Assembly: GCF_000380145.1 (NCBI RefSeq)
Contig: NZ_KB904588.1
Coordinates: 1-64,000 of the forward strand
From: Streptococcus thoraltensis DSM 12221
GTDB lineage: Bacteria; Bacillota; Bacilli; Lactobacillales; Streptococcaceae
Direction: 5' to 3'
Length of the DNA: 64,000 bases
In this document: positions 1 through 18,507 of the stretch, in pieces
How positions within the stretch are numbered: the first letter of the stretch is position 1
Layout: each line of letters begins with the position of its first letter
Notes under the pieces: generated by a model
Database searches by the model: none
Seen by the model: the letters and a program-made list of their open reading frames with translations, nothing else
Told to the model about the DNA's origin: nothing
Translations under genes and position numbers: made by a program

Positions 1-96
1 CAAAAGAAGCATCTTGTTGGCTTATTGTTAAGTGGTGAACGCTTCAAGGGACGTAGTGAGCTCTTAAGACAATTGAAGGAAATTTCAGAGAGATAG
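1..96 (+). CDS. C-terminal end of an unidentified protein (partial)
   Basis: An open frame runs in from the window edge and stops at TAG (94-96). The visible 31 residues are basic and include GLLLSGERFKGRSELLRQ. I do not recognise the family. The frame has no stop over its visible length and is followed by non-coding DNA, so it is probably the real end of a gene, but the stretch is too short for a function. Confidence 0.4.
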   Translation, partial: QKKHLVGLLLSGERFKGRSELLRQLKEISER

Positions 97-660
97 AAGA
101 AACCTAGTTTGATTTTTTGCTTGAGCTGGGGGCTTAGAGTCTAATCCATCTGACTTGAATTCAAATTTATACCAGCCATGACAAGTTGAATACTTCTTAA
201 TTTTGGGGTATGGCTTACTTAAAAATCAATTGAAAAATAAATAGAAGGTAAGTCATAAAGAATACTGTGCATAAGATAAGTAATAGAATTGAAAATATTA
301 TATCTAGAAGTTTTGATGTAACAATGGTTTCAAGGAGCAAAAACAAAACAAAAAGCGGGGCAAAAATTGGTTTCATAGTCTAAAAAGGGAGCATTTCCAC
401 AGTTGGAGATGCTCTTTTTCTAATACCATGGTTCATAATTATACTATCCCTAAAACAACTAGAGAGCCATAACTATGTATAAAGAGCATAGCATAAGTCA
501 ACTGATTTTAAATCTAAATCTCATATTCTATCTTCCTATGACTCACGAAGGTAGAATGAACTAGTTGTAGACAATAACCCGAGTGAAGTGTTACTTGAGA
601 ACAAATCACATATAGGGAGCCCTGTCTTTCATCCTGCTCTGAGACACGCTTTACTTATGC
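97..660. other. Non-coding stretch with one terminator-like hairpin
   Basis: No convincing gene is seen. A hairpin with arms GAGCAT/ATGCTC followed by CTTTTTC lies at 382-420 and looks like a rho-independent terminator reading rightward. A second imperfect inverted repeat (arms near ATTCTATCTTC and GAAGGTAGAAT) lies at about 527-562, just ahead of the IS110 relic, and may be part of that element. Confidence 0.4.
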
Positions 661-1740
661 ATGTGAAGTATTTTCAGATTGTAAAACAGCACAGATGAAC
701 GATGAAGTAATTTCGGTGAAATGGATGATTCAGGACACCTATTATCAGTTATAAAAACATCAATATTTTCCTTAGCAAAACGCTATCATCGCTCTGGAAG
801 ATACAGGACATTATGCCTTTAATCTCTTAAACTTCCTTCATGAACAAGACTATCAGGTTTATACCTACAATCCTCTACTCATCAAGGAATTCGCCAAATC
901 ACTCTCACTTCGTAAAATAAAAACTGATAAGAAAGACGCTCGTGTCATCGCACTGAAGCTCCTCTCTGACCCTAATCGCGAACAATTCCGTCATGATGAT
1001 AGACAAGAAAAATTAAAAATTCTTACCAGACATATCCACCGTCTAAAGAAGAAGCAGTCAGATTGGAAAGTACAGTATACACGTTGTTTTGACGTCGTCT
1101 TTCCTGAGTTAGATGAACTGATAGGAAAGCATTCTGACTGTGCTTACGAGCTCCTCTCACGCAACCCTAGCCCTCAAAAAATGCTTGATGCGAGATTTGA
1201 GAAGCTAATAGACATTAAACAATTAACAGTACCTAAAATGCAAGATATTCTAAAGGTCGCACCAAACGCTATCGGGACAACTTCGCTAGCCCGTGAGTTT
1301 GAACTAATCCAAATCATTGAGAATATTCAGCACTATAACAGGCTCACCGCTAAAGCCGAAAAATAAGTCGATGAGCTGATGGCTGAGCTCAACTCGGTCA
1401 TCACTACTGTTACTGGAATTGGAAATCAATTAGCTTCTGTTATTCTAGCTGAAATCAGAAACATTCATACCTTTGATAATCCTGCACAACTTCAGGCTTT
1501 CGCTGGACTTGAACCCGCCATTTACCAATTAGGGCAGATAGACTTATCAGGAAAAATGGTGAAAAGAGGGCCGCCTCATTTGAGATGGGCAATCTTACAG
1601 GCTGCTAAGGCAACGGCTCGCTTTTCTCTTGCTTTCTAAGCCTATCTCAGTAAGGGAAGCATTATAATATCGCCATCACTCACGTCGCTAAAAAGCTTAT
1701 CAGAGTACTATTTAAACTCCTCAAAAACAGCATTCTTTGA
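661..1740 (+). pseudogene. IS110-family transposase relic
   Basis: The translation resembles IS110-family transposases. It has an N-terminal DEDD-type part (the stretch ALEDTGHYAFNLLNFL near 790-840, then KTDKKDARVIALKLL) and a C-terminal Transposase_20 part (TVTGIGNQLASVILAEI, LQAFAGLEPAIY) at about 1400-1560. In-frame stops occur near 750 and 770, at 1364 and at 1637, and a frame change near 1650 is needed to reach a final TGA at 1738-1740. The gene is therefore dead. A hairpin at 1771-1805 (arms CCTTTGAAAAAT/ATTTTTCAAAGG, then T-rich) follows it and may be its terminator. Confidence 0.8.
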
Positions 1741-15334: not shown

Positions 15335-16486
15335 TTATGATTCTTTTTTTAGATATTCTGCTAACATCTTTTTTTGAGGAGTTGCCATAGGGTAGCTATC
15401 TAAATCATCTATCTTAACCCAATGTAGATACTGACTTTCTTGTAATTCTTCTTTGTTAATTAAGCCTTCAAACAATGTCATTGTCCATTTTTGATGGCTA
15501 AAAGTATGCTTGAGCTGTCTGAAATTTCGCTCAGTCCAGGTCGGTTTTATGGCATAGCTTTCTTCGAAATTATCTTTTTGTGAAATGGTTTCTAAAAAGG
15601 TATTTTCATCTTCAAAAAGACTAGTCTGCTGACTTATAAAGGAGGTTTCTATTAGCGGAAAGGACCAAAAGCCACCCAACAATCGTTCTTGCGTCTTTTT
15701 TTCAAGGAGCAATTCTCCCTCTTGATTTCGGATGATAAAGGCCTGAATTTCCAAAGGTTTTGGTTTTTTCTTAGGTAACTTGATAGGATATTTATCATAG
15801 GTACCATTGAGATATGCAGCGTTAAAAAAACGAATAGGGGATTCATCAGGTCGAGGATTTTTAGCAGATTCAATATCTGTTCCCAAATCCATCAAAGCCT
15901 GATTGAAATCCCCAGGTCTCTCTGGGTCAATCAAGATTTCCATAATAGCTTGGAAAATTTTTCGATTCTTAGGGTCGCCAATATCATAATCCACTTCAAA
16001 AAGCCTAGCCATAACACGCATGACATTACCATCAACGGCTGGTTCAGGTAGATTGAAAGCGATACTAGCAATCGCTCCTGCCGTGTATGGTCCGATTCCT
16101 TTTAGTGAGACGATATCCTCATATTTTGATGGGAAAGTTTCGTCAAAGTCCGACATGATTTGCTGGGCAGCTTTTTGCATGTTTCGCACGCGAGAGTAGT
16201 AGCCTAACCCCTCCCACGCTTTTAGTAATTTTTCCTCTGGCGCATTAGCCAAATCGGCTACCGTGGGAAACCATTCTAAAAAGCGCTCATAATAGGGAAT
16301 AACCGTAACTACTTGTGTTTGTTGCAGCATGATTTCACTAATCCAAATGTAATAGGGATTGCTCGTACGTCGCCAAGGCAAGTCTCTTTTTTCTTGATCA
16401 TACCATGCTAAAAGTGTGCGTCGAAATGAAGTAATTTTATCATTGTCCCACATCTCGATACCGTAATCTTTTAAATTTACCATCAT
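15335..16486 (-). CDS. mutY: Adenine DNA glycosylase, cluster-lacking MutY
   Basis: A 383-residue glycosylase that removes adenine opposite 8-oxoguanine. Visible are the catalytic Glu in SEIMLQQTQV, the helix-hairpin-helix SLKGIGPYTAGAIASIAF with the Asp in AVDGNVMRV, and a C-terminal NUDIX-like recognition domain (from about residue 240). The stretch after QALMDLGTDIE, where most MutY proteins have four Fe-S cysteines, reads SAKNPRPDESPIRFF with none. Clusterless MutY is known from streptococci and lactobacilli. I keep the first ATG, which GGAGAA precedes at slightly long spacing; an internal Met (residue 12) has no good site. Confidence 0.93.
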   Translation of the reverse strand: MMVNLKDYGIEMWDNDKITSFRRTLLAWYDQEKRDLPWRRTSNPYYIWISEIMLQQTQVVTVIPYYERFLEWFPTVADLANAPEEKLLKAWEGLGYYSRVRNMQKAAQQIMSDFDETFPSKYEDIVSLKGIGPYTAGAIASIAFNLPEPAVDGNVMRVMARLFEVDYDIGDPKNRKIFQAIMEILIDPERPGDFNQALMDLGTDIESAKNPRPDESPIRFFNAAYLNGTYDKYPIKLPKKKPKPLEIQAFIIRNQEGELLLEKKTQERLLGGFWSFPLIETSFISQQTSLFEDENTFLETISQKDNFEESYAIKPTWTERNFRQLKHTFSHQKWTMTLFEGLINKEELQESQYLHWVKIDDLDSYPMATPQKKMLAEYLKKES

Positions 16487-17130: not shown

Positions 17131-17172
17131 GTCAAGTTTTTTCTTGACAAAAGTAAGCGCATACAATATAAT
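17131..17172 (+). promoter_or_regulatory. Consensus promoter of the RYKNGD peptide locus, with inverted repeat over the -35
   Basis: TTGACA (17144-17149) and TATAAT (17167-17172) with a 17-bp spacer form an unusually perfect sigma-A promoter reading toward the four micro-ORFs. GTCAAG (17131-17136) and CTTGAC (17143-17148) form an inverted repeat separated by TTTTTT, the right arm overlapping the -35. This could be a repressor operator. Confidence 0.75.
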
Positions 17173-17223
17173 AAAACTATAAAGAAGGATGACAGAAGAA
17201 ACAGATTTATAGGAGGTAATCTT

Positions 17224-17268
17224 ATGATGAAACCACATGTCGCACGGTACAAGAACGGAGATAGCTAA
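17224..17268 (+). CDS. Micro-peptide 1 of the RYKNGD family
   Basis: A 14-residue ORF, MMKPHVARYKNGDS. AGGAGG (17211-17216) lies 7 bp before ATG-ATG, and it is the first ORF after a consensus promoter. It shares RYKNGD with three downstream micro-ORFs whose DNA and N-termini differ, and the codons of the shared block also vary (CGG TAC AAG against CGC TAT AAA). The peptide, not the DNA, is therefore conserved. Function is unknown; candidates are a RiPP precursor, a secreted signal or a leaderless bioactive peptide. Confidence 0.65.
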   Translation: MMKPHVARYKNGDS

Positions 17269-17422
17269 GTCTCCGGATAAATAGTAGGCAGACTTTACAC
17301 ATTATAACTTTACATTTTTGCGTATCAAAGTGATCACTGATGAAACCTTAAGTATAAGGATTGACTAAAGTACTTTAATTACAAAGTTTCTAGAACTTGT
17401 TTTCAATTAGGAGGTAATACTC

Positions 17423-17479
17423 ATGATGGAATTCAACAAAGGACGCTATAAAAACGGAGACAACTTAAGCTATTCTTGA
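17423..17479 (+). CDS. Micro-peptide 2 of the RYKNGD family
   Basis: An 18-residue ORF, MMEFNKGRYKNGDNLSYS, with AGGAGG at 17409-17414 and a start context (AGGAGGTAAT, then ATGATG) almost the same as for peptide 1. It has GRYKNGDN like peptide 3, with a four-residue extension. A weak TTGACT at 17361-17366 could be part of its own promoter. No signal peptide is possible at this length. Confidence 0.65.
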   Translation: MMEFNKGRYKNGDNLSYS

Positions 17480-17605
17480 AAATAATTTAAGAAGTGAATC
17501 CGATGTAAATAGGTATTAATTATTTCTCGAAATGAGAGATTTGCATTAGTTTTATTTAGATAATAATGGTGGTAAATCACCAATTGAGCTCAATAAAGTC
17601 GTCGC

Positions 17606-17660
17606 GTTACTCAGGGTGTGCTGAAAAAATAAAATATTGTTGATGTCACTCAGGTTGTGC
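17606..17660 (+). repeat. Direct repeats GT(T/C)ACTCAGG(G/T)TGTGC ahead of peptide 3
   Basis: Two copies, at 17606-17621 and 17645-17660, match at 14 of 16 bases. A shorter third copy (GTCACTCAGGTT) occurs at 17776-17787 ahead of peptide 4. A/T-rich -10-like stretches follow copies two and three (around 17663-17670 and 17795-17801), so the boxes may be activator sites or -35-region elements of internal promoters. Confidence 0.55.
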
Positions 17661-17714
17661 ATATATAAAAATCGTAAATTCAGACTTGTTTAAGGACAAT
17701 ATGGAGGAACGCCT

Positions 17715-17759
17715 ATGCTAAAATTTGATATTGGACGTTACAAGAACGGTGACAATTAA
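17715..17759 (+). CDS. Micro-peptide 3 of the RYKNGD family
   Basis: A 14-residue ORF, MLKFDIGRYKNGDN, with GGAGG at 17703-17707 before the ATG. It ends exactly after GDN, so the shared motif forms the C-terminus. Peptide 4 begins similarly (MLRFNISRYKNGD), suggesting these two arose by duplication. Confidence 0.65.
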   Translation: MLKFDIGRYKNGDN

Positions 17760-17775
17760 GTCAAAGATTATCACA

Positions 17776-17787
17776 GTCACTCAGGTT
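17776..17787 (+). promoter_or_regulatory. Third CTCAGG box, ahead of peptide 4
   Basis: GTCACTCAGGTT is identical to the first 12 bases of the box at 17645. It stands 25 bp before the start of peptide 4, with TTAAAAT between, so it is placed like a regulator site. Confidence 0.45.
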
Positions 17788-17812
17788 AATGAATGTTAAA
17801 ATGAGGTGAACG

Positions 17813-17863
17813 ATGCTAAGATTTAATATTAGCCGTTATAAAAACGGAGACAAATCCCTTTAA
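17813..17863 (+). CDS. Micro-peptide 4 of the RYKNGD family
   Basis: A 16-residue ORF, MLRFNISRYKNGDKSL, with GAGGTGAACG upstream of the ATG. It is the last clear member of the set. After it, GAGGAGG at about 17873-17880 stands before an open frame with only ATT/ATC where a start should be (17886-17948, ending in NKGFNDAMYSL). This may be a fifth, decayed ORF without the motif. Confidence 0.6.
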   Translation: MLRFNISRYKNGDKSL

Positions 17864-18007
17864 TGAAAAATTAGAGGAGGAAAATATTATCCAGAATATA
17901 AAAAACGAAATTAACAAAGGTTTTAATGACGCTATGTACTCCTTATGAAATCACTCGTATGAAAGGAGAATTATATTTTAGGCAAATATTTTACACATTG
18001 AAATGAA

Positions 18008-18043
18008 AGAGATACTTACAAGCGTGCAGTAAGTATCTTTTTA
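18008..18043 (+). terminator. Terminator of the RYKNGD locus
   Basis: GATACTTAC (18011-18019) and GTAAGTATC (18029-18037) form a 9-bp perfect stem, extended by A/T pairs and followed by TTTTTAATTTT. It closes the unit that began at the promoter 17144-17172 and separates it from the tRNA gene. Confidence 0.8.
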
Positions 18044-18169: not shown

Positions 18170-18324
18170 TAAATAGTTAATCATTTAATATCAAACTAGT
18201 ATTACATTCTATGTATATCAGGGACTTATCATTTTTACTAGATTGAATAAAATTTTAGAAAGTCAGAAATGTTAGGCCAAATTTTGACCAAGAGTCTGAC
18301 CAATGGTTAATGTAGACTAAATTG

Positions 18325-18371
18325 ACATAATAAAGCCTACTAATTTTAAAGGTTAGTAGGTTTTATTATGT
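18325..18371. terminator. 19-bp-stem inverted repeat downstream of tRNA-Thr
   Basis: ACATAATAAAGCCTACTAA pairs with TTAGTAGGTTTTATTATGT over 19 positions with one wobble pair. T-rich DNA follows on the plus side. It could be a terminator for the tRNA transcript or the end structure of a lost mobile element. Confidence 0.5.
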
Positions 18372-18507
18372 TTATTATTTTGTCTAATAAAGTCTTTTAT
18401 GATGGATTTTAATGGTTTGTGTTTGCATTGTTTAGCTGTCATACAAAAAATCTCCAAACGCTATAAAAGAGAGGTGTTTAAGCCCATTGTATAGCGAAAG
18501 GAGAAGT

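Follow-up and report, generated by a model that had tools for sequence, protein, structure and literature searches.

The window, a stretch of 64,000 nucleotides (nt) comprising positions 1 to 64,000 of contig NZ_KB904588.1 of Streptococcus thoraltensis DSM 12221 (GCF_000380145.1), contains at positions 17144-18042 a compact array in which a promoter is followed by four tandem micro open reading frames (micro-ORFs), each encoding a short peptide with the motif RYKNGD, and by an intrinsic terminator (Table 1). A preliminary description of the window, made from the sequence alone, had claimed a perfect TTGACA-17-TATAAT promoter, four ORFs of 14-18 codons with ribosome sites, and a rho-independent terminator. 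Each of these was recovered: the promoter agrees with the consensus at every position, all four ORFs are preceded by a Shine-Dalgarno (SD) word, and the terminator hairpin has a fold energy of -15 kcal/mol (z -5.4) that none of 200 shuffles equals. The loop of this hairpin, at 9 nt, exceeds the limit of 8 set in the consensus scan, which consequently does not list it. The codon pattern for [R/S]YKNGD has exactly four matches in the 2.39-Mb genome, all of them within the array. The further claim that the DNA flanking the motif is unrelated holds only in part, since 60-nt pieces around micro-ORFs 1 and 3 are 70% alike, as would be expected of old duplicates.

Table 1. Coordinates of the RYKNGD array and of the divergent mutY gene in the window.
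Feature	Position	Strand	Basis
mutY, divergent neighbor marking the conserved locus	15335..16486	-	Pfam HhH-GPD and NUDIX_4
Sigma-70-type promoter, TTGACA-17-TATAAT	17144..17172	+	12/12 consensus match
Predicted CcpA site (cre) within promoter spacer, AAGTAAGCGCATACAA	17151..17166	+	1 mismatch to cre consensus
Ribosome-binding site AGGAGG, micro-ORF 1	17211..17216	+	sequence; SD word scored
Micro-ORF 1, MMKPHVARYKNGDS	17224..17268	+	ORF, RYKNGD and SD word
Ribosome-binding site AGGAGG, micro-ORF 2	17409..17414	+	sequence; SD word scored
Micro-ORF 2, MMEFNKGRYKNGDNLSYS	17423..17479	+	ORF, RYKNGD and SD word
RNA-element copy: decayed hairpin arms, SD-like AAGAAG, start-stop ATGTAA at 17503-17508	17459..17508	+	
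Micro-ORF 3, MLKFDIGRYKNGDN; SD GGAGG at 17703-17707	17715..17759	+	
Micro-ORF 4, MLRFNISRYKNGDKSL; SD GAGGTG at 17803-17808	17813..17863	+	
SD AGGAGG followed by possible decayed fifth copy without ATG	17875..17914	+	by reading
Anti-SD-like 9-mer, CTCCTTATG	17939..17947	+	
Intrinsic terminator	18006..18042	+	fold energy; inverted repeat

Ten genes around the array, lying between 10.4 and 21.8 kb, were scanned against Pfam, and in agreement with the preliminary description no maturase, transporter, or peptide receptor was found among them. The neighbors are the divergent mutY, an ORF of 171 amino acids with a sub-threshold match to LemA, and a tRNA gene downstream, together with a HAD hydrolase, a luciferase-like monooxygenase, a nitronate monooxygenase, MerR and TetR regulators, and others. 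Past the tRNA gene, a strong inverted repeat with a T-rich tail at 18320-18376 forms a second terminator-like hairpin.

Distribution across Streptococcus and selection on the peptide

DNA matching the motif, by a pattern that admits SYKNGD and includes chance matches, is present in 52 of 147 congeneric genomes. Of these, 46 including that of the window were examined, the remaining six matching via Ser codons only, and they yield 51 loci (50 stretches from 45 genomes plus the window). The preliminary description had proposed scanning streptococcal genomes for the motif within tiny ORFs, and such a scan places the array in 32 of the 51 loci, window included, with divergent mutY as its conserved neighbor. 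These 32 loci hold 123 exact copies of RYKNGD, 122 of them with a start codon, which confirms that the observation is real and beyond chance. Copy number ranges from 1 to 8 per locus (four copies in 8 loci, two in 7, three in 6, five in 6, six in 2, eight in 2, and one in 1), and the distance from mutY to the first motif is 137-758 nt in 31 of the loci and 5.6 kb in the other (L072). The 19 loci outside the array set are 12 single copies linked to bacteriocin genes, two solitary single copies (L052, L059), an array without mutY in its stretch (L067), and four apparent chance matches (L045, L080, L083, L084). Carriers among the matches listed include strains of S. vestibularis, S. uberis, S. 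gallolyticus, S. equinus, S. orisratti, S. hyovaginalis, S. hillyeri, and S. ferus; the S. vestibularis locus L115 holds an array. The commonest genes within 5 kb of the 32 arrays are rpsF, ssb, and rpsR (20-21 of 32), followed by DUF1129 (14), thioredoxin (13), and CorA-like and mutS2 (10 each), and the next gene downstream varies by locus, being rpsF, an ABC transporter pair, a 94-amino-acid gene with a signal peptidase, or a tRNA. With only housekeeping or unknown genes shared nearby and no constant downstream neighbor, the array unit looks autonomous.

The micro-peptides are mostly 10-20 residues long. Among 114 distinct copies, the residues preceding the motif are restricted to a few types, N (80), H (16), or D (10) being followed by V, I, or L (100) and then by S, G, or A (104). 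All six Arg codons are used within the motif in these copies, and CGG and AGG, which are rare in the surrounding genes (12.5% together), account for 49 of the 114. Across 15 pairs of arrays the RYKNGD core differs by 41 synonymous and 18 nonsynonymous changes over 1,077 nt, the latter including 11 from a single poorly aligned pair (the window and L044) that was kept in the count; in the 927 nt of the N-terminal flanks there are 27 synonymous and 62 nonsynonymous changes, and 16% of positions (1,488 of 9,367) differ in the DNA beyond the ORFs. This comparison, also proposed in the preliminary description, bears out its statement of constraint at the level of the protein, and selection on the peptide is thus supported. 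Conservation through RNA structure beneath the motif was considered as well and is rejected, because the codons vary freely.

The start codon is ATG in 121 of 122 copies, and an SD word of 4-6 bases precedes 117 of 122, starts having been picked by best SD, a procedure that favors good ribosome sites. A stop codon follows the Asp of the motif immediately in 36 of 114 copies against 9.7 expected, and the tail is no longer than two residues in 65 against 27.0 expected, where the expectations derive from plain base shuffles of the downstream DNA. As stops directly after the motif are enriched, the short released product itself seems to be selected.

Promoter, RNA features and single-copy relatives

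A promoter with a cre-like spacer stands at the start of all 32 arrays, compared with 28 of 2,057 background tiles under the same scan, the cut-offs of which were fixed after the arrays had been seen. Under a stricter cre pattern, too strict for the purpose, 2 of the 32 arrays match. The combination is found also in all seven complete Streptococcus single-copy loci that are not of the TprA type described below (L042, L055, L057, L070, L149, L167, L202). L181 has no such match and appears by eye to be the end of an array cut off by its stretch. Five array-less genomes (L270, L271, L272, L273, L282) have, upstream of mutY and about 60 bp from it, a cre-type promoter of another kind (e.g., TTGAAAGCGTTTT...TATAAT) that heads a long intergenic stretch. 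This stretch shares blocks by eye in L270, L273, and L282, matches no Rfam family over cut-off, and may be a second RNA under carbon control in the same location.

The arrays also carry RNA features. In 22 of 32 arrays the 9-mer CTCCTTATG, complementary to ribosome sites of the TAAGGAG type, is present 3' of the last micro-ORF; the other 10 lack it. After some micro-ORFs there is an element with a conserved loop, GUUGCAnAAAAUAGC, and covarying arms, and this hairpin masks an SD-like AAGGAG and a following ATG, often as ATG-TAA. In the 34 of 44 segments that contain the loop-like word, native arms pair with a mean of -8.8 kcal/mol versus -6.5 for swapped arms, a difference that none of 1000 permutations equals, although the segments are related by descent and the permutation count is not a probability. 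In five of the 34, including that of the window, the pairing of native arms is not superior to that of most swaps. The copy in the window is decayed, with a fold energy that does not surpass that of shuffles (z -0.5) and is poorer than that of swapped arms. A strict 25-base pattern for the element matches in 8 of 147 genomes, in every case at array positions, and RNAalifold applied to MAFFT alignment A1 gives no structure. Rfam at gathering cut-offs returns nothing but tRNA in the window and no family other than tRNA in eight array loci of about 3 kb; below threshold, SpF25 matches L014 (on the other strand than the array) and Atu_C9 matches L021. Start-stop or ultra-short ORFs stand behind the masked SD after the hairpin in L066, L061, L064, and others, as well as at 17503-17508 of the window, and these read ATG-TAA or ATG CCA followed by a stop, mostly within about five codons.

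Single RYKNGD micro-ORFs precede lactococcin-972-type operons in 12 Streptococcus loci. Phr-like ORFs lie ahead of such micro-ORFs (by eye). The lactococcin-972-type gene is over the Pfam cut-off in both members scanned of its cluster (L047, L053), the related 98-amino-acid gene of L055 and L070 has at most a sub-threshold match, the 90-amino-acid gene of L042 has none, and the bacteriocin gene looks disrupted in L058 and L071. One cluster of helix-turn-helix (HTH) regulators adjoins 8 of the 12 loci, which have a Phr-like gene as well; RNPP_C passes its cut-off in L042 but not in L053, where the match is sub-threshold. In the TprA/PhrA-type loci (L047, L053, L054, L056, L058, L063, L071, L073), the name PhrA being presumed from the C-terminus LDVGKAD, RYKNGDV is kept in a frame with an upstream TGA and no ATG, and an overlapping ATG frame ends in AGA-TAG just ahead of it; the micro-ORF there looks like a broken gene or a frameshift site. 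Solitary MLKMNMSRYKNGD ORFs with predicted cre control occur in S. merionis, S. moroccensis, and S. ovuberis (L167, L202, L149), and the roughly 300 nt downstream of them are alignable with conserved blocks, which suggests a structured RNA.

Loci beyond Streptococcus are examples among the matches listed and not counts. They include MHINPQRYKNGDTS... micro-ORFs in L161 and L208, labeled uncultured bacterium and proteobacterium, MNYMNPQRYKNGD... in Peptostreptococcus sp. D1, MTARYKNGD in Erysipelotrichaceae, and MIYLNPQRYKNGDI... in contig L317 of a viral collection. Most of these micro-ORFs lie upstream of genes whose products, including an amidase-domain protein and a C39-like peptidase, have a hydrophobic N-terminal segment, and in L161 the stop of the micro-ORF overlaps the start of the next gene; the exception is the first copy in L207, the next product of which has no hydrophobic start, and the stretch of L231 ends too early to tell. 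In a class-wide sample of 398 genomes, where two matches had no locus attached, the loci obtained hold no clear micro-ORF outside Streptococcus save a weak TTG-start candidate (L242), and viral scans gave one convincing case, L317. There (positions 1-1000, minus strand), as in Peptostreptococcus L199, the same trio of a small HTH regulator, an NPQRYKNGD micro-ORF, and a signal-peptide-like protein is present, in L317 after genes resembling a phage head-tail module, and the trio is possibly a mobile module. In L216 (1364-1942) there is an AgrB-family gene some 1.2 kb downstream from a single RYKNGD micro-ORF. Sigma-factor-like proteins in L144, L156, and L171 have the motif close to their start (e.g., ...NLRLVAHIVKKY), probably by coincidence. 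The cre-like site in the promoter, the linkage to mutY, the RNA hairpin element, and the relatives beyond Streptococcus had all been overlooked in the preliminary description.

Candidate mechanisms

From the observed ORFs, selection on the peptide, arrays of varying copy number, conserved locus, match of the promoter to cre, and enrichment of stops after the motif, we infer, tentatively and with a probability of roughly 0.4, that the array encodes a leaderless RYKNGD peptide repressed by CcpA and amplified in dosage, which acts in trans inside the cell on a conserved target. When glucose is present, CcpA bound to the cre between -35 and -10 would block transcription; on exhaustion of preferred sugars one short mRNA would be produced that ends before the next gene, and translation starting separately at the ribosome site of every micro-ORF would supply several doses of fM-x-x-N-[VIL]-[GAS]-RYKNGD per mRNA. 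The peptide, which would be expected in the cytosol because it has no signal sequence, would stay there and bind a conserved machine, the first candidates being the ribosome or else a protein of core metabolism or RNA decay, as with SR1P of Bacillus, a peptide that binds GapA and whose encoding RNA is repressed by both CcpN and CcpA (PMC8152036). Action in trans on a conserved target upon lifting of catabolite repression is proposed because of the apparent autonomy of the unit, its repetition, its compact product, and its non-diversifying motif, and the unchanged motif in contigs of other families would suit a conserved target. A wider version of this proposal, which we regard as doubtful, would make RYKNGD a Firmicutes-wide class of micro-peptides directed at the ribosome or a core machine, in which the carbon-gated streptococcal transcript, with its repeated micro-ORFs, ATG-TAA ORFs, and anti-SD-like sequence, would act with the peptides to retune translation at glucose depletion, and single copies would serve bacteriocin or secreted-protein operons.

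Several findings weigh against the proposal of a CcpA-repressed peptide acting in trans. The conserved RNA features, namely the covarying hairpin that masks an SD and the 9-mer CTCCTTATG, would be superfluous for a pure peptide gene. The promoter with cre is not confined to arrays, as it lies within 600 bp upstream of mutY in 9 of 30 array-less genomes, and it is absent from the seven TprA-type single copies scanned and from nine loci outside Streptococcus, some of which have little upstream DNA. Although 30 of the 32 arrays have a terminator-like hairpin in the 450 nt behind them, the loose scan that detects it also matches 486 of 861 background tiles, so that only for the window is there good support for a terminator. 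Single copies outside Streptococcus that lie directly upstream of genes for secreted or membrane proteins fit a cis-acting leader equally, and RYKNGD occurs in unrelated long proteins as well.

The upstream position of the single copies and the geometry of the hairpin make ribosome arrest the strongest rival, although we consider it rather unlikely in itself. RYKNGD would here be a nascent-chain pausing or arrest motif, the halted ribosome keeping mRNA structure open or protecting the mRNA, so that single copies would be leader peptides of secreted-protein or bacteriocin genes and the array transcript would hold several ribosomes. Its identity in distant contigs, the placement of most single copies directly upstream of genes for secreted- or membrane-protein-like products, and the closeness of the SD-masking hairpin, which after some ORFs starts no more than a few nt from the Asp codon, are in keeping with such a role, and MsrDL is a known ribosome-stalling leader peptide of streptococci with, like the micro-ORFs, a very short ORF, a position upstream of a gene in the case of single copies, and adjoining structure (PMC10314930). 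The arrays, unlike arrest leaders, have no common downstream gene to regulate, and the unit in the window ends in a terminator. Moreover, immediate stops are favored but would not be required by simple arrest at Asp, and no hairpin was seen by eye after single copies outside Streptococcus.

Next in rank among the rivals, and unlikely, is a leaderless pheromone that, after export and re-import, would be sensed by an RRNPP-type receptor whose gene lies elsewhere, the array copies raising its dose. It gains from the HTH regulators beside the bacteriocin-linked single copies, one of them over the RNPP_C cut-off, from the Phr-like genes ahead of those micro-ORFs, and from the presence of two Rgg-type proteins on other contigs of the window's genome (Rgg_C search, that genome only), and leaderless communication peptides such as SIP, paired with RopB, do share tiny leaderless ORFs and strong ribosome sites in streptococci (PMC10518010). 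Those peptides are hydrophobic, differ in code among close species, and are encoded near their receptor, according to the same source, whereas the RYKNGD peptide is hydrophilic, repeated, and invariant, and no receptor gene stands beside any of the 32 arrays. RNPP_C is encoded in 30 of 147 genomes, only 4 of the 32 with arrays against 26 of the 115 others, and such receptors do not seem to follow the arrays; no relative of the TprA-type regulator was found in the window's genome, and at bacteriocin-linked single copies the Phr-like peptide is already the expected ligand. A base-pairing small RNA under CcpA control with CTCCTTATG as its seed, the peptides being secondary or a second function, is quite improbable: the 9-mer after the last ORF, the covarying hairpin, and the precedent of dual-function SR1 (PMC8152036) would suit it, but conservation is strongest at the amino acid level with codon choice free, the 9-mer is missing from nearly a third of the arrays, and no Rfam family over cut-off matches the arrays scanned. 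The tandem tiny genes and the presence of single copies in bacteriocin loci recall multi-copy precursors of ribosomally synthesized and post-translationally modified peptides (RiPPs) or leaderless bacteriocins, a reading to which we give hardly any credence, since no modification enzyme or dedicated exporter was found in the commonest gene clusters within 5 kb of the 32 arrays (rarer genes were not all scanned), there is no split into leader and core, the conserved part runs to the end of many peptides and contains no Cys, and the lactococcin-972-like protein is the likely bacteriocin at single-copy loci. The preliminary description thus stands as to a multi-copy micro-peptide system under selection without local partners, whereas its options of a RiPP precursor and of a signal read by an RNPP_C receptor are not supported as far as the searches reach, and its suggestion that partners have been lost is disfavored because none of the 32 loci shows one.

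Related systems and significance

The closest comparison may be with SR1/SR1P, which has in common with the array a small RNA unit, repression by carbon source (predicted here), a conserved small peptide, and extra conserved RNA features; SR1P, unlike the arrays with their 1-8 exact copies of mostly 10-20 residues, is one peptide of 39 residues that is reported only from Bacillales (PMC8152036). TprA/PhrA-type loci with lactococcin-972-like bacteriocins contain single RYKNGD micro-ORFs between the phr-like gene and the bacteriocin operon, and loci of this type respond to galactose and glucose (PMC6120550, PMC6753895), but the array in the window has no such regulator, Phr gene, or bacteriocin. 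RYKNGD has no match in the full text of open-licence PMC papers, and other literature searches there gave no description of the system. To our knowledge, no counterpart has been described for an array of this kind, in which one micro-peptide is encoded in tandem with a separate start for each copy.

The array represents a widespread and strongly selected streptococcal gene family whose products fall below the usual size for gene finders. No system known to us combines near-identical micro-ORFs in tandem, a promoter with predicted carbon control, and the absence of a partner nearby. If the target were found, it would link sugar depletion to bacteriocin or secretion programs in streptococci and would show that a peptide core of nine residues can be conserved across distant bacteria.

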